Shown one piece after another: positions 540 to 55,795 of a DNA stretch of 64,000 bases. This stretch comes from Mesostigma viride. Lineage: Eukaryota > Streptophyta > Mesostigmatophyceae > Mesostigmatales > Mesostigmataceae. The stretch's first letter is position 1. Each line of letters opens with the position of its first letter. The stretch spans positions 4,777,228 to 4,841,227 of the forward strand of contig RPFO01000050.1 in assembly GCA_009746045.1 (NCBI GenBank), in the 5' to 3' direction. Position numbers and translations under genes: made by a program. The notes below the pieces were generated by a model, which was not told the origin of the DNA, did no database searches, and saw only the letters and a program-made list of their open reading frames with translations.

Positions 540-1284
540 GCTGGCGAGGCACTGAGCAGCTGTGCAATTTCAGGATGTCAACGTGGGACACCAGACACAA
601 ATGCAAGGAAGCCCCAGGCGGACAGTTCGTGGAGCAATTCACCAACCTTAGAGCCAAGATTCCCCAATGCTCTGACGCAGAGGCGCTTCACAGACTACTG
701 CATGGCATGGCTCCACACGTGCGACTGGATGTGGACAAGCACTTCTCCCAGTTCGACTACGTGGATGGCAATGGGACAAGGTGTTGTCTTATGTGCTTAC
801 CCTTTGTCGTGTGCCTGCTTTTTCTGTCAAGTGGGAACCTGTGGCCACGCCAGTGCCACCCATCAAGAAGTCCCTGAACCAGCTGGATGACCTCCTGGGG
901 GCTCAATGCTTGGATCCCACCCAGGGTAACTGTTTTATCTGCAACCAGCCAGGTCACTTTGCACGGGACTGCCCTAGACGGGACCAGTTTCCCCCTGCCA
1001 CGAGAGGACCTTTTGGCGCCCTGCCATCTCCCAGGCCACCCAACCTTCCTCCTGGCGTTCCTGCTGGCGATCACCGGATGCAGCCAGGGTTCCAGCCCAA
1101 CTTCCAGCCCTCTGGGAGGTTCCAGTCCCGCGCTCGGCCCTTCAGCAGACAGGATAAGCGTAGGATGGTGAACGCTCTCATGCAGCTGCTGGCAGATGAG
1201 GAGGATGGGGGGACGAGGATGAGCCTCCAGCACCACCTGAGCAGCTTCCACCATCGGGCAGTGGAGCATCCCAGACCCACCTGA
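540..1284 (+). pseudogene. gag: gag remnant with CCHC zinc knuckle
   Basis: Two frames carry one gag-like protein: about 575-780 (N-terminal part, including FVEQFTNLRAKIPQ) and 781-1284 (C-terminal part). A frameshift lies near 780. The zinc knuckle CFICNQPGHFARDC (CX2CX4HX4C) is at about 931-972, followed by a Pro/Arg-rich tail. The Gag N-terminus is missing, as expected from the lost 5' end. The knuckle would bind genomic RNA in the capsid. The CCHC match is firm; the rest of Gag is recognised by position only. Confidence 0.85.
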
Positions 1285-1463
1285 GTCAAAAAACTAGTTG
1301 GGTCCCCAGGTCATCCTTCTGTCATGGCCAGGTCTGACCTGCCTGCTGTTGACGTTAGGCCAGTGAACACTGTGGGTGCTTCTGACCCTGCTGTCCCTGT
1401 GGGTCCTCCTGTACCAGGTCACTTACTCAAGTTTCAGGCTAGGCTCCTCAACGTGCCAGTCCC

Positions 1464-1940
1464 TTGGCTCAGCCAGCTTGCTTGTTTATGATTGATTCTG
1501 GTGCTGGCAGTAATTATATTGCTGCATCCTTGGTGCAGGAGCTGAAGTTGCCTGTGTTGGCCCACCCCACACCTGTCATGGTGCAGTATTCTGATGGCAG
1601 GAGAAGCTGCTCACCTGGCTATGTGCAGCTCATCTTCCAAGTTTGTTCATCCCAGACTTTGGAAGTGACAGCAGATGTCATTCCCCTCACGGCAGCAGAT
1701 GTGATTTTGGGGATCCCATGGTTGTCTGACACCAATCCTGCTATTTCTTGGCCTGACAGGGTGGTCCAGTTCAAGGATGGGACAGTGTGGGATGCTACCT
1801 GTGTGTTGCCAGGGGGAGAAGAACAGCCACTGAGTGCTGTTCCACACAGACAGCTGTCAATGATGGCAAGGGAGGGGAAGCAGGTGCGAAAGGGGTGGAT
1901 CAAGAGCCGACTTTGGAGGAGAAACGGGCTGCCCTACTGA
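1464..1940 (+). pseudogene. pro: Retropepsin-like aspartic protease domain
   Basis: The reading frame carries MIDSGAGSNYIAASLV near its start, the DSGA form of the retroviral aspartic protease active site, and VILGIPWLSD about 70 residues later, the conserved ILG segment of the family. The enzyme cleaves the Gag-Pol precursor. The frame stops at 1940, while protein similarity to the PR-RT linker continues in another frame from about 1860, so a frameshift separates protease from RT in this copy. Confidence 0.9.
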
Positions 1941-3620
1941 AGCATGTGTGGTCTGCCAAGCATACTCTGTCTTATTTGGCCACCTATCCAGTGGAACACA
2001 TCTTTTTCCTGCATTTGGTGCCTAATGAACCTGAGTCTGCTAGTGGTCATTCTGTCAATGCTGTCAGTTCTACTGTCACCACTGAGCAACAACAGCAGCA
2101 TGATGCCTTGTTGGACAGGTATGGAGCCATCTTTGAGGACAAGATGCCCCAGTATCCTCCTGAGGGACCCATCACACATGTCATCAAGTTGGTAGAGGGT
2201 GCTCGTCCTCCTTTGTGCCTATGTACAGGATGGGCCCTGCAGAGATGGCAGAGCTGAAGACCATACTTATTGGCCTGTTGGAGGCTGGTCTGATCCTCCC
2301 AGCTAACAGTCCTTTCAGTTCTGGGTGTTTGCTTGTACCCAAGCATGATGGGGGGTGGAGGTTGTGCATTGACCTGAGGGGACTGAACAAGGTGACTGTC
2401 AAGTCCAGGTACCCTCTGCCCAGAATTGATGAGTTGCTGGAGAGGACTGCAGGAGCTGCCTTCTTTACCAAGTTTGACCTCAGGCATGCTTTCTGGCAGA
2501 TCAGGGTGGCTACTGAGGACATCCCCAAGACGGCCTTTTCTACCCATGGGGACAGTTCCAGTGGACAGTAATGCCCATGGGTGCCTCTAACAGTCCTGCC
2601 ACTATGCAGATGTTTGTCAATGCCATCTTTGGCCACCTGACTGGAAATGCCCTGCCCCAGATCTCACCTGACCTTCGCAACCCCAGGTTCAAGGACATTG
2701 CCCACTTGTGTGACACTACCAGGGTGGTCTTCAGGACTTGTGTGGTCGTCTACCTGGACGACATTCTGGTACACTCTCGTACCTTCAGGGAGCACCTGGA
2801 GAACGTGGAGGAGGTCCTTAAGGTGATCCATCAGTATCATCTGTCGGTGAAGAGGTCCAAGGTGGAGTGGGGCCAAGAGGTGAAGTTTCTGGGCTACCAG
2901 CTGAGCGCTGCAGGTATGACTCCTGAGGCCAGCAAGGTCTCTGCTGTTTTGGAGTGGCCTGTGTTGAAGTCAGCTCAGGATGTCAGATCCTTTCTGGGCC
3001 TGGTGGGCTGGTACCGACGGTTCATTCCCTGACATGGCGGCCATCTCTGGTCCCCTGTTAGCCCTGCTCAAGAAGGATGTCCCTTTGAATGGACTGCAGC
3101 ATGCCAGCAAGCTTTTGATGTGTTGAAGCAGAAGCTTACCACTGCTCCCTTGTTGGTGGGCCCCAACCCAGACTTGCCATACCAGGTTAGGTCTGACGCC
3201 TCACAGGGTGCTATTGGTGCAGTACTAATGCAAGATCATGGTAAGGGCCCTCAACCAGTGGAATACATGTCCAGGAGTATGACGTCTGCAGAACGTAACT
3301 ACCCTGTTCATGAGCAGAGCTGTTGGGATTGGTGGTGGCCTGTCACAAGTGGGAACACCTACTGAAGGGGGCCAGTTTTCTGTGGCCAGCAGCGCCAGGA
3401 TGGGCAGGGCAACGAGTCTATTACCCTGATGACTGACCACAGGCCCTTGGTACATGTGTTGGAACAGACCCGGATGAGTAAGAGGATGGCTGGATGGATG
3501 GAGTTCCTGGGGGGGTTTGGACCTTTCTCTGTGAGGTACATTCCTGGTACGCAGAATGTGGTGCCTGACGCCCTGTCCAGGAGGAGGGATTTGATGGGAA
3601 GTTTTCATGAGGACTTGGAC
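1860..3620 (+). pseudogene. pol: Reverse transcriptase and RNase H, frame-broken
   Basis: The RT fingers and palm read in the frame from about 2215 (LVPKHDGGWRLCIDLRGLN; FTKFDLRHAFWQI, first catalytic Asp). They continue in a different frame from about 2545 with the YLDDILVHS box (about 2750), which holds the two other catalytic Asp residues. Thumb and connection follow (FLGLVGWYRRF), then RNase H (RSDASQGAIGAV at about 3190; MTDHRPLVHVL; IPGTQNVVPDALSRR). Changes of frame near 1800-1860, 2215, 2545 and 3030 mark it as dead. About 30 extra residues between the RT core and YLDD are unusual for Ty3 RT. Confidence 0.93.
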
Positions 3621-3907
3621 ATCTGTGCTGCCCTGATTTCTGTGGTAGAGTGTGGAGCCTTGACTAGAGCTCAGGCCAACAACCAGAAGGTTTCTCAACT
3701 GTTGACACCACCTGTAGGGAATAACGGTGGTCCCGTGATGCTCATCGACCAGGGCTCTGTCCCAGAGTTGACAGGCGTCCAGGAGGGTGTCCAGTCACTG
3801 TCTGACAGTCTTAGGAGAAGTCCTGAAGGTGTGGTGCCCACTCCCACAGTGCAGCCAGGTGAGGGAGCCCTGCTAGGCGCAGCAGAGGTAGGCCCAGGAA
3901 GTGGGTC

Positions 3908-5659
3908 ATGGACCCTGTGTTGGTAGGCCGGTCCAAGGTGTTGGCCTCTCAGGTGATGGCAAGGTCAAAAGGGCCTATAGCTACTACTGTCTCATCCAAG
4001 CAGTTGGTGGCTAGCCCTGGGCAGGAAGAGGAGATGCAGATGCAGCCCCTGGGACCTGACAAGGACCTGGTGTTGCCTAATCCTTTAAATATTTCCCTGC
4101 TGGACGTCATCAAGGCCTTCACCAAGACGGAGGACATGGCTACTGCAGCTATCCAGAGGGGCAACTTTGGCAATAGACCTGTAGAATACTGGGAGGGCGT
4201 TCTGTATGTTCACACTCATGATGCAGAGCACACGGTGACTAGAAAAGTGTATGTGCCTGAGATGGCCATTCCCACAGTGTTACATTGTTTCCATGACGAT
4301 GTGACTGCGTGTCATCCTGGTTATGCTAAGCTACTTCATGAGGTGCAGCAGAGGTTTTGGTGGCCTGGCCTTTATCAGGATGTTAAGGCCTATGTGGATT
4401 CCTGTGACTCCTGCCAGAGAAATAAGGTCAGGAACCAAGCCACGCCCATCTTTCCCATGGCTATGCCCATTCCCCTGCGCCCTTGGATCAGTGTGACTAT
4501 GGATTTTATCTGTGGTCTTCCCATGTCAGATGGTGGCAATGACAGGATCCTTGTGGTCATGGACAGGCTGTCCAGGATGTGCCATCTGATTCCTTGCAAT
4601 ACTCATCTCACCGCTGCACAGTGTGTGGATTTGTTTATGAAGGAGATCTACCGTCTGCACGGCATGCCTAGAGTGATCATCACTGATCAGGACCCCCTTT
4701 GGCTGTCAGGGTTTTGGAAGTCATTCTTTGACATCCTAGACACTAAGCTGGCATTCGGTGTGGCATACAGGTGTGCCAGTACTGGGGCGGTGGAGAGGAT
4801 GAACAGAATTGTCAGGGAGTGTCAAAAGCACTATTGTACACACGACAACAAGGACTGGGACAAGAAGATACCTTTCATAGAGTTCGCAATCAACAACTCT
4901 CCTCTGGCTCCTCACCAGATGTCCCCCTTCGTGATCTGCAATGGCCAGTGTCCCTTGACACCATTCGACTTGGAACTGCCTGACAGAGACGCTGAAGGCC
5001 CTTTCCAGCGACGTCTTGGTTCAGTCCAGCAGTTGTTGGCTTCCTTCCAGGAGGCTCACAGCATTGTGGCTACCCAGCTGTTGAGGACACAGGACAAGTA
5101 CCTGACTAACGCCTGGCAGCAAACGGTGGCCAGTCATTCCTTTGTAGCTCCTGGGGACTTGGTGTTGTTGGAAGCCAACAGAGTGCTGCCTGAGAAGGAG
5201 CAATGCAGGAAACTGCAACCACTCTGGTTGGGTCCTTACCCAGTGTTGGCACCTTTCACTATGGTACGTGGTCCAGGTCCAGTGCCTTCTCACTGGAAGC
5301 TCAGGAATAATATTTTTCACCTAGCCCAGCTGAAGCTGTACAGGCGCAACACCTTGCCAGGCAGATTGTCTGCCCCTTTGCCTTATGAGTTGGATTCTGA
5401 GGGGGAGAAGATCTATGAAGTGGAGCGGTTGTTGGCTCACAGGGTGAAGGGGAAAGGTCGTACTAAACAGCTGCAGTTTAAGGTACACTGGAAGGGAGAG
5501 CTAGAGGTGACTGCTACGTGGCTGTGGTTGTCTGATCTCACCAACAGTCACTCTGCTGTACTAGATTATTGTCAGCGTCATGGTATCACCTTGCCTGAGT
5601 GGTATGTCATGGGCTCTGAGCGGGTGCTCCCCTTCATAGCTCCCAGTGAGCACTGCTAA
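3908..5659 (+). CDS. Integrase with C-terminal chromodomain (583-aa open frame)
   Basis: This is the only long intact frame of the element. The N-terminal HHCC zinc finger is visible (HDDVTACHPGYAKL...CDSCQRNK, about aa 125-170). The catalytic core has Asp in MDFICGLP, Asp in IITDQDPLW and Glu in GAVERMNR, the D,D-35-E triad of retroviral integrases. The last 90 residues hold a chromodomain (YEVERLLAHRVKGKG, FKVHWKG, about aa 500-560), which in chromoviruses directs insertion to particular histone marks. Its usual WKGY tyrosine region is altered. The true protein would be the C-terminal part of Pol; the ATG at 3908 is simply the first in the frame. Confidence 0.92.
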   Translation: MDPVLVGRSKVLASQVMARSKGPIATTVSSKQLVASPGQEEEMQMQPLGPDKDLVLPNPLNISLLDVIKAFTKTEDMATAAIQRGNFGNRPVEYWEGVLYVHTHDAEHTVTRKVYVPEMAIPTVLHCFHDDVTACHPGYAKLLHEVQQRFWWPGLYQDVKAYVDSCDSCQRNKVRNQATPIFPMAMPIPLRPWISVTMDFICGLPMSDGGNDRILVVMDRLSRMCHLIPCNTHLTAAQCVDLFMKEIYRLHGMPRVIITDQDPLWLSGFWKSFFDILDTKLAFGVAYRCASTGAVERMNRIVRECQKHYCTHDNKDWDKKIPFIEFAINNSPLAPHQMSPFVICNGQCPLTPFDLELPDRDAEGPFQRRLGSVQQLLASFQEAHSIVATQLLRTQDKYLTNAWQQTVASHSFVAPGDLVLLEANRVLPEKEQCRKLQPLWLGPYPVLAPFTMVRGPGPVPSHWKLRNNIFHLAQLKLYRRNTLPGRLSAPLPYELDSEGEKIYEVERLLAHRVKGKGRTKQLQFKVHWKGELEVTATWLWLSDLTNSHSAVLDYCQRHGITLPEWYVMGSERVLPFIAPSEHC

Positions 5660-8044: not shown

Positions 8045-8364
8045 CACCCACCCACCCACCCACCCACCCACCCACCCACCCACCCACCCACCCACCCACC
8101 CACCCACCCACCCACCCACCCACCCACCCACCCACCCACCCACCCACCCACCCACCCACCCACCCACCCACCCACCCACCCACCACCCACCCACCCACCC
8201 ACCCACCCACCCACCCACCCACCCACCCACCCACCCACCCACCCATCCATCCATCCATCCATCCATCCATCCATCCATCCATCCATCCATCCATCCATCC
8301 ATCCATCCATCCATCCATCCATCCATCCATCCATCCATCCATCCATCCATCCATCCATCCATCC
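8045..8364. repeat. Compound microsatellite (CCCA)n then (CCAT)n
   Basis: About 200 bp of CCCA units, with one break near 8182, pass directly into about 120 bp of CCAT units. The array starts exactly at the end of the 3' LTR. Long open frames across it are repeat artefacts. Confidence 0.98.
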
Positions 8365-15113: not shown

Positions 15114-15812
15114 TTCATTCATTCATTCATTCATTCATTCATTCATTCATTCATTCATTCATTCATTCATTCATTCATTCATTCATTCATTCATTCATTC
15201 ATTCATTCATTCATTCATTCATTCATTCATTCATTCATTCATTCATTCATTCATTCATTCATTCATTCATTCATTCATTCATTCATTCATTCATTCATTC
15301 ATTCATTCATTCATTCATTCATTCATTCATTCATTCATTCATTCATTCATTCATTCATTCATTCATTCATTCATTCATTCATTCATTCATTCATTCATTC
15401 ATTCATTCATTCATTCATTCATTCATTCATTCATTCATTCATTCATTCATTCATTCATTCATTCATTCATTCATTCATTCATTCATTCATTCATTCATTC
15501 ATTCATTCATTCATTCATTCATTCATTCATTCATTCATTCATTCATTCATTCATTCATTCATTCATTCATTCATTCATTCATTCATTCATTCATTCATTC
15601 ATTCATTCATTCATTCATTCATTCATTCATTCATTCATTCATTCATTCATTCATTCATTCATTCATTCATTCATTCATTCATTCATTCATTCATTCATTC
15701 ATTCATTCATTCATTCATTCATTCATTCATTCATTCATTCATTCATTCATTCATTCATTCATTCATTCATTCATTCATTCATTCATTCATTCATTCATTC
15801 ATTCATTCATTC
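15114..15812. repeat. Perfect (CATT)n microsatellite, 699 bp
   Basis: About 175 units without an interruption visible to me. It begins at the end of a 3'-hairpin repeat and ends in TCTCTCACTG of a LINE 5'-region copy. The open frames reading Phe-Ile-His-Ser are artefacts. Confidence 0.98.
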
Positions 15813-20017: not shown

Positions 20018-23000
20018 TCATAGCTTTCGGATGACCGGCTCTGCCACCACCTTGGCCTTGCCTTGTTTCTTCTCTAGCGACTGCTGCAGCGTAGCTTGGT
20101 CGATCTTGATGGTGTTGGCACCGCCGTTGGCTGCAAGCAGTAGTGGGGCAGTCATTAAATTGCCGCCAGTACATCCCAGCAGTCCAGCAAAGACAAACCA
20201 GCAAGACGTAGCAGTGCATCCACCCCAGTTCGCCACGATTTTTGTCAGTGAGATACGCGTAGCCTATCATAAAGGAGGCAACCAGTGCAGGCCAGAAATC
20301 TGGAGAATGCGGACCATCATGCCTGCATGATGCCGCAGAGGCGTGTGCCCTGGGCAAAGGGTAGAGCTAGCATGTACAAACCTCCACGTTGTCCCACAAA
20401 CTGGTTCCAGGCCATACACCGGCATCCTGCAGCAAAACGGATGCACGCCTTGCTGCCATACACATTGGCGCACACCCGCATGCATCGATCCAGCTATCAC
20501 ACCACTGTGGAACCATTAAACGTGAGCCTGCTTGTCTGGCAGCGCATAGATGGCTCGTGGGCCAACAGCATTCGCGGGCGCGCCGCCCGCGTCTACGCAT
20601 GACAGAGCTATGCAGCCGCACAAGTTGCGGCGCCATCATTACTGCACTGGCGGGCCCCTTTGGTATGGTCACGGGCGCTCCCCCAGAGTGTGCGGGCATG
20701 ATGGTGCCGACCACCGTGGAGGGTGTTGCACAAGTCCGTGCAGCCAAGCTCTGGCTAGGACACCAACAATCCGTGACTGGATTTTCGAGCTGAAATGAGC
20801 CCAGAGGGGAGGATGCCCCCTTGTTCCTCGAAGGCATGGAATGCACGGAAACAATAGTAGTATGGGTGCATGCAAGCAGACCCAAGTCGACGGCCAACTT
20901 TGGGATCGGAAGGGCCCAACCACCCGGATGTGCTCGACCGCCCCGAATCATGCATGGGTGCAGGGAGACAGCGTCCGCAGGTGGGTGCCCACGCACATAG
21001 CCAAGTGCGCGCCCCCCCCCCCCCCCCCCGGGTCCTCACCTGCGGCCGCCACCACTGCGGCGGCGTCCACCCCTTCGCTCGCCTCCCTGTCGAAGCGGAA
21101 CACTTTGAGCACGTCCTTGGGCACACGCGCGGGGGAGGAGGGACCCTGCGGACCGTGCAGCAGTGCAGGGAGCGTTTGCCAGCATCAGCATCACGGTCAT
21201 GATGCCACTAGTGAGGGCGCTTCTGCATGTGGGCGCACACATGCGCACGCCACAGATGGCAGTGCAAGTTTCTACCCCCTCGGGTCGTGCCCAGATCCGG
21301 CTCCACGTCGCCCTCCATGGCTGCGAGGGCAGCGAAAGCGCGTCACATCTCTCCATGGCCGCGTCCCCCCTCCAGGGACGCGGGGGCCACCCGTCCATGC
21401 AACAAGGGGCTGAAGGAAGGTGCCATTGCATGCCTTGGCCCGCCACTTGAGCAGCTGATATGGATTGCTTTGGTGCCCATGGCTCCAAGTCATACAACCA
21501 CAACAGACATGCCTGCAAGATGCCAGCGTGAAAGACAAGAGTGTGTGCTCTCCATGCACCAAGGGATGCCCGCAAGAAAAGCATCCTGCGAGGCAACCAC
21601 AAGCACACCCCCTCAGGCACCTGGGCTCACGACTCGCACCCACAGGGTTTCCCTCCTCCACAGGGGGCACTGGCCCCCAACACTGGAGTGGGCTGCTACT
21701 GGGGAGTCGCAAAGTGCTACGCATCAGGTGCTTCCTAGCCCCTAAGCAAACGGAGGTGAGAACATTACTGCCGTGACTGGTGGGTGTAATAATGCAAACA
21801 AGATGTGGTTGAAAACGTGAGTGTGGCCAGCTGCCAACCATGTGGGCACTCACCGCAGGTCCCCCAGCTGGTGTGCCACCCCCCCCTGGTTGCGGCGGCG
21901 CGTCTTGCGACTTGGCCCAGTAGCCATCCGGCAATGGCGGCGACAGTGTGCGGCCCTGCCAGCGCAAGCATAGCACACGTGTGGGTGTGAATGTACACCA
22001 TAGCATACGTGTGAATGCACTATTGCGCGGACGCATCGTTGACCGGACGCCAGCCGGTGGGGTGCCAGCCGCATGGGGGTGACGTGGGGTCAGCAACTGT
22101 AGTCGCGGGGCCTTTTTGTCCCCCATGCGCAACAGCAGGCAGGTGTAGCACACTTGCACAAGTTTGCAAGCCTGGCGATTGAGATGCACAGAAAAGTCAT
22201 GTTCGCTCGCCCCCTTCCCTCCACGCTGCCTTACAGGACATGCATGGCTTTGGGCACGGTGGGCGCATGCAACGTGGGGCGGTGGAGGGTGGGTGAGAAA
22301 GGAGGAACACCCAAGTCACAACCTGCCACCGTAATGGCAGGCCCTCCTACTAGCCCGACGTATATGCGGGTGTTCACCACTGGCACCTGTCACACCGGCG
22401 GCGGAGCACAGGCATGTCCCGAGACTCGCCGCGTGTGTGTTTGGTCACTATACCCCATCCGGTCAACTATAACCCACCAGGTCGCGCCGCGTGTGTGGTT
22501 GGTCACTCTACACCCACCAGGTCGCGCTGCGTGCGCTTCATCTCCACTTCTTGCTCCTGTGCCGCCACCACGCGCGCTGCCTCCTGCCGTTTGCGCTCGA
22601 TCGAACGCACCTCCTCGACCAGACGCTTCTCCGTGGCCTGCGCCAGGGGCCCAGGCGATAAGAAGAGCAAAACACACGCGGTGGCACAGCAAGGTGCGAT
22701 GGGTGAGCTGGCTAGTAGCCTGCCTAGCAGAAGCTGCGGCAGGTTTCCTTGGCAGTCCACAGGGGCAGTGGCATGATACTTAATGAGAAGAGTAATGAAA
22801 ATGAGGATAACGAAAATGACACTTGAAGATGATGGCAAGGATGAGAAGGGAGTGGCAACGGCAGAAATGATGGCGATGACACGGATACTGATGCTCTGGG
22901 TTGTGGACACTTGTGTTTGGGAGCGCTGCACAATTCCAGCCGTCATCTTGGACCATCCACCGTGAAATACGCGCGGTGAGTGCCGGAACACTCACGCAAG

Positions 23001-26000
23001 CCCCATGTCCTTGCCTTGGACCCCTCCCTCTAGCTTTGACCTTCCACCTCGACTCGCCCACGCGCTGTCACAGTCTCATCCCCCCACCCCCACGCACCGT
23101 CATGGTCTCATCCCCCACACCCCACCCCACCCCACGCACCGTCATGGTCTCCTTCTTGCCGCTGCTGGTGGGCGTCACCGTCGACCGCGGCACAGTCTCC
23201 CCAAACGCCACCCTGGACGCGCCCTGGCGCATGCCGAACAGTTCATTGGCCGCCAGCCGCTCGGCGGGTGTCACCGCGTGCTGGCGATGGGGAGGCCAGG
23301 TATCGCCATGGCATGTTCCAAGCAGCGGCATGCATGGCCACAGGACCGTGACAGCACGCCGAGGTGGAGGGGTTGAGCAGGGATGGGGGTGTTGCGTGGT
23401 CATGCCAACCCAAGTGGCAAGTACACATGACCCAGAATACGGGACTGAACCACAACCCTTGAAGGCACGCGCAAACATGCATAAAATATGCCCACACGGG
23501 CATGGACACACACACACGCCCCCCCCTTCCCCCCCCAACACACACACGCACCCGCCCACCCGCTGTGGCAGTGGGGCAGGGCCACCGTATGCGAGCGGGG
23601 GGCCAAGACGAGAGACGTGTGGGTACAAGTGCTGGCACGGGTGGGTGTGCTTTCTCTCACCCCCTGGCAGCCACAACCATGGGCAGCAGCTCTCATCATG
23701 CACGTGCCCACCATCTGCAATCCTGCCTGGCTGGGTGTGGGCAGGTGCTGGCATTAGCATTGTGCGATGCTAGCCAAGGAAGGGGGATGGGAGCGGGATA
23801 AAGGGAGGGGGAGGGGAGCTGGTATCAAGGACCCGCTGGGCACGGGGAAACGCGGCCATGGCCTGGAAGGCACCAACGGACCACCCCATCGGTTTGAGAT
23901 TGTCCACACCCCCATGTTCGCGCAATGTGTCCGCATTAACACGTGCAGCTAACGTCCAGCCTCGCTGGAAACCGGGCATGCGTGTGCGAGCGGGCATGCG
24001 TGCAAGCGGGCATGCGCGCCCACACCCCAAGTAAAGCACATGGGCCGCAACCGCTTGTTGACGCTGGCAATGGGCAATGTCTGCAGGTTTGCGGGTTTCC
24101 ATGTGCCTGTGCATGCGCGGTACAGGTGCATACATGCGCACATGCATATGGACGCTGTTGCTTCAACATTTCTTCCATCTCATCTATACGAGATGCAAAT
24201 TGTTGATGGCTGGGCTGGGTTCGGGATCTGACAAACCAACAACACTAGAGCCCCTCACCACAAGCGGGGCTCACCAGGCCTCCTGCCCCTCCCCAACATC
24301 TCCCCGTGCTGCCCGTGCTCCCCCCGGCCCTCTGCCTTCCGCGCCGATCCGATCCCCTTCCAGCCACCGAGTCAAACCCCTCCCCCCCCCTCACCCACCG
24401 AGTCAAAGACTTTGAGCGTGGGCAGGTGGTGGATGACGGTCGCGCGGTAGTCCGGCTCCTCACAGCACGCGTTGCCCTTCAGCTCCAGCTCGGTCAGGAA
24501 GGGCAGCGACGACAGGTGATGCAGCACCTGCCAGGGGGGACAGGGGCCACCGCCAAGGTCGTAACAGGTGGCGGTCACCGCGGCTGTTGCGCGTATAGGA
24601 AGATACGGCACGTGGCCCAAGCCACCATCTCACACATGTCCACGTATGGGTGGACGCTGGTCGGTGCGTGGGGTCTCATGCTCGTGCAGCATAAAGGCCC
24701 CCGCACCGGGAACTGTTCGGGTTCCCAAGCCCCGCCCTTGGCTGGCGTACCGCGGACAGTACAGGGGCAGAGACAGGGATGCGCTCCATGCAGGCAACCG
24801 ATGCACACTTGCGGTCGCGTTGCAAGCAACCCAAGGTGGTCCTATGTGCCCGTACAATACGTGCTCTTACCTCTGGTCCTATGTGCCCGTACAATACGTG
24901 CCCCCATGGCCCCTACCTTGCCCAGGTGGTCCTATGTGCCCGTACAATACGTGCCCCCATGGCCCCTACCTTGCCCAGGTGGTCCTATGTGCCCGTACAA
25001 TACGTGCCCCCATGGCCCCTACCTTGCCCAGGTGGTCCTATGTGCCCGTACAATACGTGCCCCCATGGCCCCTACCTTGCCCAGGTGGTCCTATGTGCCC
25101 GTACAATACGTGCCCCCATGGCCCCTACCTTGCCCAGGTGGTCCTATGTGCCCGTACAATACGTGCCCCCATGGCCCCTACCTTGCCCAGGTCGCGCAGC
25201 GCGTTGTTGGACAGGTCCAGCACTTCCAGGAACTTGAAGTGCTCCAGGGACCCCTGGCAAGGCGGCGCAGGGTGCGGCAGCCACGTGCGCGCATCGCCAA
25301 GCAGGCACACCGCGCGAAGCGATAAACAGGCAGAGGAGATGTCAGCATGCGCGAGGCAGCGTGCCAGAAGTGGTTGGGCCGCAAGGGCGCCCTTTGCCAC
25401 ACTACCCAGTGAAGAAGCCATGCGTTAACGAGGCTACTCTTAATGCGGTCTGCAAACAGCAGCGCGTCCGCCGGCATCCTGCCCCGACAAATGATGCGCA
25501 TCCCAGGGACGTGCGAGGCGTGATTGGCCGCGTACGTGTGGAAGCACAAGAGGAAATCATGAGGGAATCACCACAGGGGACAGGTCCGCCCAACGTGGTG
25601 AAACCGCGGCACACGATGGCAAGCCCATGGCAGAGATATGGCTGACCTCCCAAGCAAAGGCAGTGAAGCATGCGCACAACAGTTTGTGTTGTACGTTGCA
25701 GCCAACTACCGTAGCGGTCAAGATCACTTTGCGACCAACTACTTTGCGAATCGACCTCGCAAACTGCTTTTCATGGGCTTCATTGTGGGTCGCAAAACTT
25801 AACGCGTCGCGCCTGTGCCGTGCCGCACGGCCCCAAGACCCAAGTAGACAGGTCATGAAGTACATGGGCTCACCTTCCATGGCCGCACCGGGGCCACTCA
25901 GGGCCATGCCCGGCCCTATATTATAACTAATCAGTGCTTGATGAATCAAAACACTTATGTAGGCGGGAACCTATGGGTACCAGCCACTCGGACCATAAAC

Positions 26001-30572: not shown

Positions 30573-31301
30573 ATGTCTCGCCAGTCATACCACCTTATGC
30601 GCAAGCCCGACGAGGACAGGATTGACAGGGAGGACTGGAATGATTTGCAGGATTTGAAGATGATGCGAAGGCGTACAGGATAAAGACGTCTCTCAAGGCG
30701 TGGTGCACGTTTCCAAGCCCTACGTAAGTCGGTTTGGCTTGCCGCGAGCTGCTAATGAGAAGCGCACTCGCAACCACGGATGATTCGGGCGAACTGTCGC
30801 GTTTGGCCGATGGTTTCAACCAGACGACCAGGGGAGTTGTTGATGGTCGTGTTGGTGCGCTCGATGGTATCGCAATCAAGATAAAAAAAAACCTTCAAGT
30901 CGGAGGTAGCGAACCCCAGGCAGTACTACAATCGTAAGGGGTTTTATGCGCTTGTCATGCAAGCTGTGTGCGATTCGAAATGTCGTTTTCTGTATGGCTC
31001 CAACAAATGTTGCGGCAGTACCCATGACAGTGTCGCATTTCGTGTCAGCTCTTTGCACACGGAATTGGCTCGTGTTGGCCTGCCAGAAGGATTCTACATA
31101 GTGGCAGATGAGGCATACACCATCAAGCCTTGGCTTGTGACTCCCTACCCAGGAAGGGGTCTCAACGTCCAAGAGGACGCATGTAACGATTACATCTCTT
31201 TGTACAGGCAGGTCATAGAGCGTGCATTTGGGATTCTTATTCACCGCTTTGGCATCCTTCACCGTGCATTGACATGTGACCTACGACATGCAACATGCTA
31301 G
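30573..31301 (+). pseudogene. Harbinger transposase (DDE_Tnp_4 type), frame-broken
   Basis: A first piece starts MSRQSYHLMRKPDEDRIDRE. The next frame gives RGVVDGRVGALDGIAIKIKK with the first catalytic Asp (ALDG). After a run of nine A (about 30881) the protein continues one frame over with QYYNRKGFYALVMQAVCDS, then HDSVAF, YIVADEAYTIKPWL (second Asp) and VIERAFGIL (Glu). These are the Harbinger DDE motifs in order. The A-run slip and the early stop near 30680 break the gene. The early stop could instead be an intron, but the slip within the DDE domain makes the copy inactive unless recoded. Confidence 0.85.
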
Positions 31302-31795
31302 CCAGCTTTTTTTACCCACCTTGGTGTATAATGCTTGAGTGTGCCACGTGTGGCATGGTGTTTGGTTGCCAGTTTTTTTTACCCACCTTGGTGTATAATA
31401 ATGCTTGAGTGTGCCACGTGTGGCATGGTGTTTGGTTGCCAGTTTCTTTTACCCACCTTGGTGTATGCTTGAGTGTGCCACGTGTGGCATGGTGTTTGGT
31501 TGCCAGTTTTTTTTACCCACCTTGGTGTATAATGCTTGAGTGTGCCACGTGTGGCATGGTGTTTGGTTGCCAGTTTTTTTTACCCACCTTGGTGTATAAT
31601 GCTTGACTGTGCCGCGTGTGGCATGGTGTTTGGTTGCCAGTTTTTTTTACCTACCTTGGTGTATGCTTGAGTGTGCCACGTGTGGCATGGTGTATGGTTG
31701 CCAGTTTTTTTTACCCACCTTGGTGTATGCTTGAGTGTGCCACGTGTGGCATGGTGCTTGGTTGCCATTTTTTTTTTACCCACAAGCGGTGAGGA
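31290..31795 (+). repeat. Minisatellite inside the Harbinger element, unit about 65-73 bp, seven copies
   Basis: The unit includes TTGCCAGTTTTTTTTACCCA, CCTTGGTGTATAATGCTTGA and GTGTGCCACGTGTGGCATGG. Copies differ mainly in T-run length and presence of TAA. It starts just after the transposase frame. Confidence 0.95.
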
Positions 31796-34180: not shown

Positions 34181-37100
34181 ATGGGGGTTGGCAAGAGAGA
34201 TGTCCTGTTCGAAACATGTTACGAAAGGGTACTGAAAAAGAACAATGCAGTGGATATGGGTGACATTACCTACATGAAAAACACGCTTAATCCCTCAAAA
34301 CCGCCGGCAGAGGCTGCCGGGATCCTGGAATGGATAGAGGTACGGGATGTCGCTGTCGTCAGTGCCCTACCGGGATTCTTTTATGCATGGCTCCTTCGCT
34401 AGTTCTTGCAAGTGGCAGTGGTTGCCCTCAGGTCACGAAAACACATGGCGCATAGGCGCATGTACTTGGTACTCATAGCAAAGAATTCCTAGTCAGCCAC
34501 TTTGAAGAGGAGGACTTTGTCCGGAAGCATCAGCCCATTTCTAACCGTCCAGTCTACGTTGGCAGTGTGCCATTTAAGATGCTGGAAATAAGCGGATTCA
34601 AATTTGCTGATCGATGCGGTCCCGAATAAAGTGTGTTCTTGCACCATGCACCCGCATCCACCTGGTCATTATCAGACATGACATGAAATCATGTGCTGGG
34701 AGCTTGGGGTACCACCCTGTACAGGTGGCCGTTTTCATTCGATGTTTCTGCGATTCCTGGTGGCCGGGGCATGAAGTTGGCACGTTTATCCATGTCCGTG
34801 GCTTGCCCAAAGGCCCCCCGCCCCTCTTACGTGCGGAGCAGGGCTGCTAGTGCCAGTCTCCATCGCACCCCAGCCGTTCTGCACACATCACACATGCCCA
34901 CCCTTCGTCCACCCCCTTGTCCACCCTCATGTCCAGAATAACCCGAGCATGAAGGTGACCAAGAAGGAGTATACGCAGGCGCTGGTGCTGCTCAGCGCCA
35001 ACATGGACGACAGCGAGGTGGAGGAGAAGGTGGCCGCGGTCATGAAGGGGATGGCGCAGGGGGACCCTGGCATGGGATCCAAGTACCATGAGCTGGCGCG
35101 CATACAGGTAGGAACACTGCTGCCACGTGGCACCGCCGCATCGTCTGGCCGTGCTCATGTCTCGAGATGTGTGCCGTGTCTTCTTTATGGACGCAGGCTG
35201 CGTGGATGCGGCATGTGGCGGTCTCAATAGTTGAACACCACGTGGGAGTCTCGGCATATCCTCAGAGAATGACCTCATTGCGCCCTGCCATGCCATGATA
35301 CTCTCGTCAGAATGGCTGTACTATGTCATCAGTGCCTCCCTCCCTCCCTCCCTCCCTCCCTCCCTCCCTCCCTCCCTCCCTCCCTCCCTCCCTCCCTCCC
35401 TCCCTCCCTCCCTCCCTCCCTCCCTCCCTCCTCCCTCCCTCCCTCCCTCCCTCCCCTCCCCCTCCCTCCCTCCCTCCCTCCCTCCCTCCCTCCCTCCCTC
35501 CCTCCCTCCCTCCCTCCCTCCCTCCCTCCCTCCCTCCCTCCCTCCCTCCCTCCCTCCCTCCCTCCCTCCCTCCCTCCCTCCCTCCCTCCTCCCTCCCTCC
35601 CTCCCTCCCTCCCTCCCTCCCTCCCTCCCTCCCTCCCTCCCTCCCTCCCTCCCTCCCTCCCTCCCTCCCTCCCTCCCTCCCTCCCTCCCTCCTCCCTCCC
35701 TCCCTCCCTCCTCCCTCCCTCCCTCCCTCCCTCCCTCCCTCCCTCCCTCCCTCCCTCCCTCCCTCCTCCCTCCCTCCCTCCCTCCCTCCCTCCCTCCCTC
35801 CCTCCTCCCTCCCTCCCTCCCTCCCTCCCTCCTCCCTCCCTCCCTCCCTCCCTCCCTCCCTCCCTCCCTCCCTCCCTCCCTCCCTCCCTCCCTCCCTCCC
35901 TCCCCCCTTCCCCCCGATTCGCCTACTGGTTGCATGCATTCTGCGCATTACCTTGTGCTCACATCCACATCCACACACGCGCGCGTGTCGGCCACTCCTC
36001 GCACCCCATCCATCCCGCACCGCATACGTTGCTGCAATGTTCCCCACTGGCAGGAGCTGGTGCGTGCGCAGGTGGACTCCAAGCCGCCAAAGAAGAGCTA
36101 CTACACGCCCGCCGAGGTGCAGCTGCACGCACGTGCGGACGACTGCTGGGTGTCTTTCCTGGGCCACGTGTATGACCTGACGCCGCTGGTGGCGGACGTG
36201 CGGCACGAGGGCGTGCTCATCACGCCCATCCTCAAGGAGGCCGGGGGGGACATCTCGCACTGGTTTGACGCCAAGACGGGGGATGTCGCGCGCCGGGTAG
36301 ACCCTGTCACCAACCTGGACGTACCCTACACGCCGCAGGGACGCTTCGTGCACGTGCCGCCGCCCGTAAGTGCACGACGCGGCAGCGCGGATGCTGTGTG
36401 CAGGCCCACAGTGCCCCGCTACGCATGTCACCATGTGGATGTTGCTTCTCACTTTGCTGGCATGTCTAGGACAGGCATGATGCTGCTTGATTACGGTTCC
36501 TGGGACGGCCGGCGTGTCTAGTCCAGGTGCTAGAGCACGGAACCCTGTGTAATTAATAAATTAATTAATTAATTAATTAATTAATTAATTAATTAATTAA
36601 TTAATTAATTAATTAATTAAACTCGTGCTCCCGTTGGGGAGTCACGGAGCACCGAAGTGCTTTTAATCCCTGAGTGTGCACAACAGGAGAAAGGGCAGAG
36701 ACCCCCAGTCTCCTTCATGCCTAAGGCATGCCACCTGTGGCATTGGCAGAGCATTGTCCTGGTGTGCAACGCAGTGTGGGCGGTGTGCAGGTGGCAGCCG
36801 TGCTGCGTGTGGTCCCTATCCTACCATGGTGGGTGGAACAGCGCAAGCCTCGTGGTACTGACAAGCTGCAGCGTGCGTTTGCCTGTCGCTTGGGTCGCAG
36901 GAGCCCATGAGTAACTGGAGCACCAACTTCAAGCTGCCCTGGTGGCGCGACCCGCAGTACCTGATTGGCCGGCTGTCCAAGAAGACGCGCCGCATCCGCA
37001 TCAAGAACGTGATGACGGGGCAGGAGGACATGATGGAGGTAGGGGGGGCAGGGGGCATGATGGAGGTAGGACGGGGCAGGGGGCATGATGGAGGTATGCT

Positions 37101-37940
37101 GGGGCAGGGGGCATGATGGAGGTATGCTGGGGCAGGGGGCATGATGGAGGTATGCTGGGGCAGGGGGCATGATGGAGGTATGCGGGGCAGGGGGCATGAT
37201 GGAGGTAGGACGGGGCAGGGGGCATCATGGAGGTAGGGAGGGGCAGGGGGCATGATGGAGGTATGCGGGGCAGGGGGCATGATGGAGGTAGGACGGGGCA
37301 GGGGGCATGATGGAGGTAGGACGGGGCAGGGGGCATCATGGAGGTAGGGAGGGGCAAGGGGCATCATGGAGGTAGGGCGGGGCAGGAGGACATGATGGAG
37401 TTCTGGGCAGCAAGTGCGGCCACAGAATGCATGCGCAGGCGCAATGGCAGAACGTCAGCATTGGATGGTAACGGTTCATTCTTTTTGCCATTGTAGACAG
37501 TGTCAAGGCCATGTTGACATCTCCTTGTACAGAATAGCAGGCCCTGAATGCTCTACCCGTCCTGTGCTGATAGTGCCCATGCATGAACAAAGCGATATGA
37601 AGGGGTGTAAGCAAAATTAAGAGCTTACACCCCTTTGCACATGCTGCTGGCCCATGAACTCTTCTGTATCGCGCCCCAGGTGCCGACGGAGGAGACGGTG
37701 GAGGAGCTGCGGGAGCGCTACCTGGACCGCAACTGGCACGCGCGCAGTTACACATGGAAGGCGATGATCAAGCGGCACGAGGGCGACGAGTACGAGTTCG
37801 AGCCGCTGGACATGTCGCTCACGCTGGACCAGAACGGGATCAAGGACGAGGGCGACGCGTTCAGCGACCTGTCCATCCCTGACGACTACTTCATCCCCGT
37901 CATCCATCTCTACTACAATGATGACCTGTCCGTTGCATGA
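34181..37940 (+). CDS. CYB5D1: Cytochrome b5 domain-containing protein 1 (346 aa, five exons)
   Basis: Exons 34181-34339, 34937-35107, 36054-36365, 36901-37038, 37680-37940; GT-AG junctions, all phase 0, total 1041 nt. From aa about 125 the protein follows CYB5D1: YYTPAEVQLHARADDCWVSF, LGHVYDLTPL, DISHWFDAKTGDV, GRFVHVPPP, PWWRDPQYLIGRLSKKTRRI, ARSYTWK, LTLDQNGIKDE and the end IPVIHLYYNDDL. In animals and algae CYB5D1 is a ciliary haem-binding protein linked to radial spokes. The first about 120 residues (exons 1-2, starting MGVGKRDVLFETC and containing KEYTQALVLLSANMDDSEVE) have no counterpart in the human protein as I know it. Intron 2 holds a long CCCT microsatellite, intron 3 a 3'-hairpin repeat and intron 4 a splice-donor minisatellite. 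Confidence 0.93.
35336..35903. repeat. (CCCT)n microsatellite in intron 2 of CYB5D1, about 570 bp
   Basis: TCCC units with occasional CTC or CCCCT interruptions. Pro/Ser/Leu and Gly/Arg/Glu frames through it are artefacts. Confidence 0.98.
36551..36745 (-). repeat. 3'-hairpin repeat with (TTAA)n tail in intron 3 of CYB5D1
   Basis: In minus orientation GGTCTCTGCCCTTTCTCCTG..TTAAAAGCACTTCGGTGCTC is followed by the hairpin (CTCCCC/AACGGGAG), ACGAGTT and a 70-bp TTAA array at 36551-36620. It is the same family as 18740-18875 and 61480-61655. Confidence 0.9.
37016..37402 (+). repeat. 27/28-bp minisatellite made of the exon 4 splice donor (CYB5D1)
   Basis: Exon 4 ends GGGGCAGGAGGACATGATGGAG before GTAGGG in four pieces: GGGGCAGG, AGGACATG, ATGGAG and the donor. 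The intron then repeats GGCATGATGGAGGTAGGACG or GGTATGC(T)GGGGCAGGG variants about 12 more times. The last copy regains the exon form GGCAGGAGGACATGATGGAG before TTCTGGG, so the array has exon-like ends on both sides. Confidence 0.95.
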
Positions 37941-42337: not shown

Positions 42338-45300
42338 ATGAGTGGACGTAGAGCTTCCCAGTTGCTTCGGCATGCTGGGAAAGGGCTGGTTTCCAATCGG
42401 GCCGCCGTATGTTGCACCAGCCTGGCGCAGCCTGCCGTTGCATTGCCTCAACATGCGGCGGTTAGTTCTGTTGCGGAACCTGCTGCCAGTTTAGCGCGCC
42501 CACAGCTGCCTTGCGTAGCTAATTTGCTGCCAAGAACACTCCTCAGATCTGGCTGTCACGGAAATGCTGCGTCGGCTATGCCGTCGGCACGGCCGCCCGC
42601 CGAAGTAATATCAACTCTGCACCTTCGCGGTGGTCGCCGGTATTCCACTGCCGGCAGCAATGAAGTGCCAAACATTTTCGTACAACATCACGTCAATCTT
42701 TCTGGAAACGGCATTGATAGAGTCGCATTGCGCAACGCTTCGCTAGGCATTTTATATGAGGACGCCATTAAATATGACGGGGGCAAAATTACGTCGACGG
42801 GGGCACTTCAGTCCTACTCATACGAGAAAACCGGACGTAGCCCCGAGGTATCGTCGCTCATGCAGTTTTTCTGTTTTCATTACCGCATGTGGATATCTCC
42901 TTGGATGCCGCTGGCTTCGGGCTGTTGAGGCCAGAGACGGAAGCGACATAAGCTCACCGCTTGCCATTGGACATGCGCCGTCTTCGCCACGTAATTGCAG
43001 GACAAGCGGATTGTGGACGAGCCGGGGAGCCGTAATGACGTGTGGTGGGGCTCCATTAACATGCCAATTTCAGACGATGTTTTTTCAGCCAACCGAAGCC
43101 GGGCAGTGGATTATTTAAGCACATGTGAACGGCTATGTAAGTATACAGCCATACACTTGTCAATGCTGGATGGTGTGCGCACAGTTGGACTGCTGCTGGC
43201 AGCATTATAGCAGGCGGGCAATATGTTTGGTCTCTGAGCCTGCTGGCGGATAAACACTTTTATAGGTGTGCAGCCATGGCAGCAACATGAGCTTTGGCTG
43301 AAAGTGCACATTTTCTATGTATGTATGTATGTATGTATTGTACAGGGGTGGCAAGGATGGTCCTTCTTATTAAGAACATTGTGCCGGTGACAGCGTCCCC
43401 CCCCTGTGCTGTGTCTGATGGTCTCACCGGCCTGACATCCCTTGTGCTGCGCTGCGCGGTGCTGTGGTGTGCGCTGCCGTCATCTGCCTCCCCTCCTTCC
43501 CCCAGATGTGGTGGACGGCTACGCGGGTTGGGACGAGAAGTACCGCATCAAGGTAAATGGGTGGGTGGGTTGGGCGCATGCGTGGTAGGGTTCACCGGAT
43601 TTGTCTCAGTTGTCTGCCCTGATGTGTTGTGCACGTCCGTTGGGGGGTGCCCTGATGTGTTGTGCGCGTGTGTGTGGGGATGCCCTGGCCAAGCACGGAT
43701 GCCCTCCTCGGGCATGCGTCTACCTGTCCGCGATGGTCGGTGGCCACATGGTGGTGCCTGCGCATGGTATTGTTTTGGTGTCCGCGGGGTCGGCCCCCTG
43801 GGGTTGGCCCCCTGGAGGCGCCAGGTAGCAGCGTCTAAGGCCACCGTGTTGCGTCCATCGCTGATGTGCTGCCTGGGCGTGGTGGCGGTGGCAGAAAGTG
43901 ACATGTGGCGAATGCGTGGCCATCGTTGGCATGGTGGGGGGTGGACATGCGGCATGCGGGTGTGCACTGCACGGAGTCTACGTAGGTGACTGCTCCAGGG
44001 CCCCTTGTTTGTAGCACTTGACGCCGCTGGATGCGTGTGAAGGAGTAGCTATGCTGTGTGGGTGTGTGGTGTAAGCTTGAGGTGGTACGTGTGTGCCTCT
44101 GTGTGTGTATGGATTGTCCCGCACTGAACCCTTTCCCTTGCGTGCGAGCCATGTTGTGCTCTACCCCCTGGCAGGTGCGCGTGATCACCGCGCGGCCCTA
44201 CCACGCCATCTTCATGCACAACATGCTCATCCGGCCCACCGCAGAGCAGCTCGCGCGCGACTTTGGCGCCGACTTTGTGCCGGATGGGAGGTCGCGTTTT
44301 GTGATCTACAACGCGGGCGCGTTCCCCGCCGACAGCTCAATGGAGGGGGCCATCGCGCGCGGGTCGAAGACACGTGTCGCGCTCAGCTTCGAGCGTGGGG
44401 AAATGGTGCGTGGGGGGCGGTGTGGTCGCGGTGGGTGGATGGTGTGTTGGGGTGGGATGCATGGGGGGTGGGTATGGAGGCGTAGGGAAGCGAGGGATGG
44501 TGCGTTGTGGGGGCATGGGGCAGGGGGGCTCGAAGGATGGTGCCTGTGGGGTTTGATGGGGCAGCGTGGTAGCAGCACCCTGGTCATTTCTGGCTTTCTC
44601 TCTGACTGTATGATGCTATGCTCGCTGCCTGGTGGGCAGGCGTGGCCACCCAGCTGGACACATGCTATGCCGCACCCATACGGATCTCCCGGTCCTCCTT
44701 TTGCTTGCCATGCCCTTGGCATCTGTCACCATGCATGGCCTTGGCATCTGTCACCATGCACGGCAGGCATGATGTGGGCACCCGTCCGGCATCCCCCCTT
44801 ATCCCTCCCCTCCCCCCCTTCGTTTCCCTCGCCCCCGCTTCTGCCCCCTATCCTGCCCCCGTTTTACTCGCCTCACCCCACCCACCCATGCGTCCTACCC
44901 CCCATGCCTGCGCGTCCACGCACTTACGTGTCCTACCTCCCCCCCTGCCTATGCGTCCATCGCCAGGTCATCCTGGGCACGCACTACGCAGGCGAGATGA
45001 AGAAGGGCGTGTTCACCGTGATGAACTACCTCATGCCCAAGGCGGGGGCGCTGCCCATGCACGCCAGCGCCAACGAGGCGCGCGATGGCTCGTCCTCCTC
45101 GGTGTTCTTCGGCCTGTCGGGAACCGGCAAGACCACGCTCAGTGCGGACCCCAAGCGCAACCTGATCGGGGACGACGAGATCGTGTGGAGTGAGGAGTGA
45201 GTGGATCTGTTTAGGTGTGGCGCGGGCCGGGGGGCAGCACTGAGCTCACGTGGCTTGCAGCAGGGGACCCGTACGGGCTTGGGAGGAGATGGATAGGGTC

Positions 45301-47443
45301 TGGCCGCACCAGGCAGGTGTCAGAGTCTGGAAGATGAACTAGAGTTGGTGGCCTCTACCCTAATAGACGAGTCCTAGCAGATGGTGGCATCAACTTCTAA
45401 TGATCCTTCGGGGGGGGGGGGAGGCAGGCGGGCAAGGAAGGGAGCCGGAAGTTGAGAGCCAGGGGCGTCGCAGGCTGCCCTGCGGGTGGTCGTTGCATGG
45501 GCATGGCACCCACCCTCTGTTTCACCGCCCCCCCACGGCCTTCGCTAGGTTTGGAGTAGTGCCACCTCCTTCCGTGAGGACGTACACATCAAGCCGCGCC
45601 ACCACAGCGGGCCATAGTGTTTGCCCCGCGTCACATGGCCATATCCCTGCTTTGCTTGCGCGGCGCGGCTCGATGCGCTGTCGCTGCGTCCATGTGACCT
45701 GCCTAGTGTTTAGGAGGAGCTGGTCACGTGTCGCGGGTGAGTGTGATGGCAGGCAGCCCTGGCTTGTCCTGTCGCGCACTTGCGCCACTTAGATATTCCG
45801 TCTGCTTCCCTTGTCAGTGTGCAGGACGCGGCTCATTTTGTGCTTATCTTTCACTCGCCTTGTGCCTGGCTGCCCCACACCTACTCCCCTCATCCTGCCC
45901 CCCCCATCCCATACAACCACTACCCATCTCCCACCCCAGCGGCCTGTCCAACATCGAGGGCGGCTGCTACGCCAAGACGGTGGACCTGTCGCCGGTGAAG
46001 GAGCCGGAGATATTCGGCGCGGTGCGCTACGGCGCGGTGCTGGAGAACACGGTGATGGATGCCAGCACACGCGTGGTGGACTACACAGACACGAGCCTCA
46101 CCCAGAACACACGCGTGTCCTACCCGATCGACTTCATTCCCAACGCGAAGGTGGGTAGGGGGGGGGTTTGGTCAGGGTGATGGGGATGGGGGTCGGGCGA
46201 TGGGGCGGGATAGGGTGGTGGGGTGGGGGGTGGCGTGGGGCAAGTGTAGGGCACGGGGGTTGGGATGAGGCAGGTTGCATGGTGAGGCAATACGCTCGCA
46301 GGCTGGAAGACGCCTAAAAGTTCTCATCCTCGGCTAAACACTTGTGGCTGTCAGAAGGTTGTAGAGTACCGGGTGTTGGATGCCCGGGTGCTGGTCTCGC
46401 CAAGTAAGGTACCATGAGGCACCAGGGGTCCACTTCCTCTTTTCTTGCACGCATGCCACCATGGTTTGATATCTGGCACGCGGTCGGGTGGAAGAGCGTA
46501 CGTGCTGGCGGGTCGAACTGGGTCGTTAGCAGCTCATGTTGTACCTGCCAGGGTAGTCGCTGTCCACAGATAAGTTGGCCGCACGCATGCGGCACTGTGC
46601 AGGCAGGCGCTACTTGCGGCTTGTGGCACAGGCGGTATGGTTGCTCTCCTGCGCCATGTGCCCCTCTGTCCTTCCTGCGTCCATGAAGCGGTAGATGCGC
46701 GCGTCGCGGCTACGCTGTAACAATGATGTCATGCGCCCCCCTGTTGCCACCCCCCTTCCACCCCCCACCCCCAGGTGCCCTGCCTCGGCACTATGCCCAA
46801 GCACATTGTCTTTCTGGCGTGCGACGCGTTCGGCGTGCTGCCACCTGTCAGCAAGCTGACGCCCGAGCAGGCGGAGTACCACTTCATCAGCGGCTACTCG
46901 GCCAAGGTGGCCGGCACCGAGATGGGCGTGCGGGAGCCCGTCCCCGTGTTCAGCGCCTGCTTCGGCGCGCCCTTCATGGTCTGGCACCCGGGCGTGTACG
47001 CGCGGCTGCTGTCGGAGCGCATGCGCAAGCACAGCACGAGTGCCTGGCTGGTCAACACGGGGTGGTCGGGCGGCGCGTACGCCACGGGCTCCCGCATGCC
47101 ACTTGCGTACACGCGGGCCATCATCGACGCCATCAATGATGACAAGCTGGACGCGGTGCCCACCATCACGGAGCCGGTCTTCGGCCTCGCCATACCCATG
47201 GACGTCCCTGGCGTGCCGACCGAGATGCTGGTCCCCCGCCAGGCCTGGTCGTACCCCGGTGGCGGCGAGGAGTATGACCGCACCGCTGCCAAGCTGGCGG
47301 GCCTGTTTGTGCGCAACTTTGACAAGTACGTCTCTGGGGTCAGCGAGGCGGTGCTGCAGGGCGGCCCCTCGGCGATCATGCTGGCACACGAGGCCGAGGC
47401 ACCCGAGCAGCACCAGCAGCAGCGCATGGCCGCGTCCTTATAG
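42338..47443 (+). CDS. pckA: Phosphoenolpyruvate carboxykinase (ATP) (677 aa, seven exons)
   Basis: The enzyme converts oxaloacetate and ATP to phosphoenolpyruvate, CO2 and ADP. Exons 42338-42847, 43001-43136, 43506-43552, 44175-44405, 44967-45196, 45940-46150, 46775-47443; GT-AG, phases consistent, 2034 nt. Signatures in order: EKTGRSPE then [68 protein letters not shown]; the ATP-binding [14 protein letters not shown] (aa 357-370); the metal-binding [70 protein letters not shown]. The ATP-type family is typical of plants, algae, fungi and bacteria. The first about 110 residues (Arg/Ser/Ala-rich, starting [19 protein letters not shown]) precede the conserved core and may be an organelle-targeting peptide. 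No inactivating change is seen. Confidence 0.97.
43314..43338. repeat. (ATGT)n microsatellite in PEPCK intron 2
   Basis: About six ATGT units. Confidence 0.9.
44400..44560 (+). repeat. Degenerate repeats of the exon 4 splice donor in PEPCK
   Basis: Exon 4 ends GGGGAAATG before GTGCGTGGGG. Within the next 150 bases GGATGGTGTGTTGGGG (44445), GGATGGTGCGTTGTGG (44495) and GGATGGTGCCTGTGG (44536) resemble the junction. Similarity is looser than in the LRR and CYB5D1 arrays. Confidence 0.55.

Positions 47444-51137: not shown

Positions 51138-55795
<4,658 letters not shown>

Follow-up and report, generated by a model that had tools for sequence, protein, structure and literature searches.

Tandem repeats overlapping 5' splice sites behind four consecutive exons of an LRR gene and behind one exon of a neighbouring gene in Mesostigma viride

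In a 64,000-nucleotide stretch of DNA from the streptophyte green alga Mesostigma viride (the window), the donors of exons 5, 6, 7 and 8 of an LRR gene were each found to be followed, inside the intron, by a direct repeat containing the last bases of the exon together with the GT. All four repeats had been described in a sequence-only reading of the same DNA and were recovered here on the minus strand. A fifth donor repeat, absent from that reading, was found in a second gene, and tandem units whose first copy overlaps the exon end were present at five donors. We consider it probable that these arrays arose as tandem duplications through short homology, perhaps favoured in the G-rich starts of introns, that they survived where they lay over donors, and that they then expanded as minisatellites.

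The LRR gene lies on the minus strand, has 11 exons and is FAP279-like. The reading frame of its spliced exons 2-11 was open throughout, and the protein was 100% identical over 309 residues to jgi/Mesvir1/21798 (eukprot). The top solved relative was FAP279 (E 1.6e-47), a Chlamydomonas protein. The spliced reading of the neighbouring gene matched jgi/Mesvir1/21800 with 100% identity across 293 residues, and its database matches were named cytochrome b5 domain-containing protein 1. On the minus strand, exons 5 (25182-25253), 6 (24399-24527), 7 (23140-23280) and 8 (22518-22637) of the LRR gene were placed by open frame and public-model identity, and the cytochrome-b5-domain exon preceding a 28 bp array (36901-37038, plus strand) was placed by public-model identity. 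The alignment to FAP279 was gap-free across the ends of LRR exons 5 and 6, and homologues read straight through the cytochrome-b5 junction at the 28 bp array. Wrongly drawn exon boundaries were ruled out as a source of the pattern by the two public gene models.

Behind exon 5, six identical 53 bp units were found (24875-25192, minus strand), the first of which includes the last 11 exon bases and the donor; each of the six begins ACCTGGGCAAG/GTAGGG (the slash marks the exon end or its copied equivalent). A distal variant copy, CAGAG/GTAAGA, of which the last 27 bases match the 53 bp unit, was located at 24838-24874 (minus strand). The exon 6 end and donor occurred in two copies 31 bp apart (24364-24407, minus strand), with the 13 identical bases TTTGACTCG/GTGG at 24407 and 24376. 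At exon 7 the copies were 42 and then 32 bp apart (23057-23151, minus strand), with GAGACCATGACG/GTGCGTGGGG at 23151 and 23109 and a degenerate third copy that has lost the GT. At exon 8 the second copy was found 40 bp downstream (22427-22533, minus strand), with GCGCGACCTG/GTGGGT at 22527 and 22487, and a third copy was degenerate and partial. Of the unit lengths given earlier (53, 32, 40 and about 43 bp), the first was exact, and those for exons 6, 7 and 8, measured here as 31, 42 and 40 bp, respectively, had been off by 1-3 bases; in all other respects the earlier description proved accurate. Repeat scores ranged from 13.5 to 71 at the donors of exons 5-8 compared to 3.0-4.0 at the other six LRR donors, where repeat scoring found no comparable repeat. 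When the first 200 intron bases were shuffled with dinucleotides preserved, the observed donor match was reached in 0/200 shuffles for each of exons 5-8.

The units of different exons matched one another over at most 7-8 bases, and they are therefore not copies of one spreading repeat, which agrees with the earlier view that they differ between exons and represent independent events. A second locus for the units, such as an introner-type mobile intron dispersed at many sites would give, was sought within the window, and nothing beyond matches of 10-17 bases was found. The idea of a single repeat that spread was left unsupported by these mutually unrelated units.

The fifth array was found on the plus strand of the cytochrome-b5-domain gene (37017-37400) and consists of the exon copy, 12 inner copies of a 28 bp unit with GGAG/GTA, and a terminal copy without GT. 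Over the 22 exon bases the terminal copy did not differ from the exon copy, and the 12 inner copies had a common form that was 1 base shorter. The outermost copies therefore seem to be the oldest, with growth of the array from within, and coding constraint presumably also preserves the exon copy. When the first 200 intron bases were shuffled here, the observed match was equalled in 2.5% of cases; the G-rich make-up of this array survives shuffling.

Donors and acceptors were compared, as had been suggested from the sequence, in five genes of the window with exons read by hand (the LRR and cytochrome-b5 genes and three others, which by their sequences are presumably PEPCK, EB1 and YjbQ). The PEPCK, EB1 and YjbQ exons are hand readings alone, and YjbQ was modelled in part; the join of EB1 exon 3 to exon 4 breaks the frame, and its donor and acceptor were counted nonetheless. 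The counts exclude a coiled-coil gene around 49.4-50.5 kb as well as further candidate genes. The 26th donor belongs to the first exon of the cytochrome-b5 gene, where no array was found over either the donor or its acceptor; the scoring and shuffle sets comprise the 25 donors without it. Repeats were found at 5/26 donors and 0/26 acceptors (Fisher's test, one-sided P=0.025, two-sided P=0.051). Selection alone could produce this asymmetry. It can be argued that acceptor duplications are selected against, and the absence of covered acceptors was also likely at random (0 compared to 0.53 expected in the placement test below, which is not unusual).

For that test, 13 arrays were set at random in 20000 draws such that no more than 25 exon bases were covered; the exon 6 array was entered by hand, and the cytochrome-b5 array was taken as 37017-37400 and not as the detected 37029-37386. 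In the five genes, 5 covered donors were seen compared to 0.54 expected (P=5e-5). In the LRR gene alone, 4/10 donors were covered compared to 0.28 expected, a value reached in 0/20000 draws. Without the LRR gene, 1/16 donors was covered compared to 0.24 expected (P=0.22). A looser placement with 12 arrays, in which exon 6 did not reach the score set for arrays and four donors were counted, gave 4 donors compared to 1.38 expected (P=0.025), and 1 compared to 0.44 without the LRR gene (P=0.38). In the LRR gene, which was chosen for it, the pattern greatly exceeds what chance would give, and the neighbouring genes are consistent with it but leave it unproven. Since the LRR gene drew attention by its pattern, the enrichment rests on a selected gene.

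The earlier interpretation was borne out in part, in that the events were independent, donors and not acceptors were affected, and a second gene proved to be involved. That a process acts at 5' splice sites themselves is a stronger claim, which the counts did not establish, the excess without the LRR gene being the small one given above. In its strong form, donors would be true hotspots of duplication: R-loops at G-rich intron starts, or some other process associated with transcription or splicing, would stall or break the DNA there and seed tandem duplications. The five-gene count, the four donors in a row within one gene and the involvement of the second gene speak for it. The count outside the gene selected for its pattern and the modest significance of the looser placement, with its four donors, speak against it. 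The position-wise control also bears on it. A repeat score of 12 was reached by 5/25 donors, 0/25 acceptors, 10.4% of 1017 internal GTs and 1.8% of 1204 exon positions, but also by 14.8% of 2285 intron-interior positions, little below the donors, and by 20.5% of 575 positions lying 10-100 bases into the intron, level with the donors. This control alone does not mark donors as special, and it was given little weight, since it is full of long arrays and microsatellites and its positions depend on one another. Overall, we regard true hotspots as unlikely, and similarly unlikely the wider claim that M. viride 5' splice sites are hotspots genome-wide through transcription-linked breakage at G-rich intron starts, with a sizeable fraction of donors (5/26 in the present biased sample) heading arrays that vary splice choice and intron length between strains. 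If donors were hotspots across the genome, exon-intron boundaries would constitute fragile sites of a new class, and in the arrays nearly identical donors, as many as 13 within an intron, would compete in a natural experiment.

Base composition was found to differ along the introns. Intron starts contained 39.8% G and 4.0 GGG per 80 bases compared to 26.5% and 1.2, respectively, in mid-intron, and intron ends were C-rich, with 38.1% C (25 introns of the five genes). The G-rich starts and C-rich ends, visible for example at 46151-46250, are a possible splicing signal or source of R-loops. The G-richness of intron starts is a further point in favour of transcription-linked breakage at donors. 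In the first 30 intron bases, mean G was 0.55 in the array introns (n=5) compared to 0.40 in the rest (n=21; one-sided P=0.048), a difference that is partly the repeat itself. At three of the five arrays, putative short homologies between the exon end and the bases just past the array were read by eye: ACCT at exon 5, CACGC(A/G)GCG at exon 8 and GGGCAG in the cytochrome-b5 gene. Short-homology duplication would be predicted to leave such stretches. Further local arrays were found well inside introns of the same genes, indicating that duplication is general, and 8 of the 13 placed arrays lay within introns away from donors.

Under the explanation that we favour, namely short-homology duplication followed by survival over donors, a short direct repeat between the exon end and intron sequence about 28-53 bases downstream would allow slippage or a similar short-homology event to duplicate the intervening stretch, at a rate that G-rich intron starts probably raise. 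Selection would then purge duplications altering an exon or damaging an acceptor and tolerate those that straddle a donor, since splicing at the first copy would leave both the original exon-GT junction and the frame unchanged. Later slippage or unequal exchange would enlarge some arrays and homogenise them from inside. The extra GTs would be passengers, although many resemble a donor no less than the first copy does; their occasional use would mostly yield frameshifted or stopped transcripts, with the exception of the second copy of exon 7. Such passive survival may be an incomplete account: it leaves unexplained the four consecutive LRR donors, with 4/10 covered compared to 0.28 expected. 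If the arrays are mere survivors of ordinary duplication, they would represent one route by which introns lengthen at the 5' end while the protein is unchanged.

The splice potential of the distal copies was scored with a matrix made from 21 unaffected donors, and copies within 1 unit of the first donor were listed. At exons 5, 7 and 8, identical copies had donor scores equal to that of the first copy. In the cytochrome-b5 gene, 3/12 inner copies scored within 1 unit of the first donor and 9/12 fell below, and the second copy of exon 6 was weaker, more than 1 unit below its first donor. In total, 11 distal array copies were within the limit, and 10/11 would shift the frame or meet a stop, in line with the previous expectation that use of a distal copy would shift the frame. 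The accompanying remark that most units are not multiples of three also held (53, 31, 40 and 28 bp), with 42 bp as the sole exception. If the second copy at exon 7 served as the donor, the protein would gain 14 in-frame residues (VRGVGWGVGDETMT), and this extension is open. In the public models the first copy is the donor at all five junctions. That relatives read across the exon 5, exon 6 and cytochrome-b5 junctions favours use of the first copy there.

These results bear on whether the extra donors are kept for a function, such as determining isoforms or reducing expression, in the role of redundant, decoy or alternative 5' splice sites. Human IFI6 offers a parallel, in which the repeat unit reportedly is 12 bp long and is said to start near the end of exon 2. 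In that gene (also G1P3 or 6-16; Turri et al. 1995), minisatellite units supply donors in one transcript and two downstream units are used (PMC4526556). The likeness to M. viride lies in minisatellite units that carry splice donors, and a difference lies in use: distal units are used in IFI6, whereas the public M. viride models use the first copy. The precedent, the well-scoring copies at exons 5, 7 and 8 and in the cytochrome-b5 gene, and the open in-frame extension at exon 7 argue for a function. However, first-copy use in the public models, the frameshift or stop met by all but one of the listed copies, the weak exon 6 copy and the loss of GT from the third copy of exon 7 argue against it, and retention for function is accordingly judged to be very doubtful.

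A further possibility is that the intronic copies of exon ends represent early intron gain or boundary shift and are to become new exon. Tandem duplication over exon-intron boundaries has been described as able to alter gene structure in human paralogues and in potato. Against this, duplicated acceptors numbered 0/26 and relatives aligned insert-free across three of the five junctions, and we regard this possibility as the most improbable of all those considered. The acceptors of the array introns were located outside the arrays, and formation of an intron's GT and AG from exonic copies was not seen at them. In the AGGT model of intron gain, exemplified by ATP2A1 and by 24 bp repeats in fission yeast (summarised in PMC4974935), a short tandemly duplicated segment likewise holds donor-like sequence. 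As summarised there, an exonic duplicate yields both the GT and the AG of a new intron, whereas in M. viride the segment straddles an existing donor and yields no acceptor. Internal tandem repeats at exon-intron boundaries have also been described as a class in human segmental-duplication genes (PMC2812944). They resemble the M. viride arrays in that tandem repeats lie across exon-intron boundaries; the human repeats are reported to create new introns or alter exons among recent paralogues, whereas the M. viride introns keep their boundaries.

No publication on donor repeats in Mesostigma was found among the literature matches listed. Precedents are on record in the IFI6 minisatellite, in the human boundary repeats and in intron gain through tandem duplication, and the new part would be a genome-wide donor hotspot. 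The IFI6 precedent concerns one gene with a 12 bp unit, whereas in M. viride five donors in two genes carry unrelated units of 28-53 bp.

Other repeats and open frames were observed in the window. Behind PEPCK exon 4 (44393-44560), four loose GATGGTGCGT-like copies were seen by eye, perhaps an old and decayed donor repeat; the best match was 12/16 (P=0.14), and this candidate was excluded from the donor counts. Very long simple repeats of four-base or related units, with up to 175 copies of TTCA, were present at 8045-8361, 15114-15812, 35335-35912 and 54308-54569, the last two inside introns. Retroelement-like open frames were found at 676-5659; from their translations we take them to be zinc-knuckle, protease, reverse transcriptase and integrase-like. 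A tandem array of approximately 64 bp units (7.3 copies) was found at 31301-31783, outside the annotated genes.
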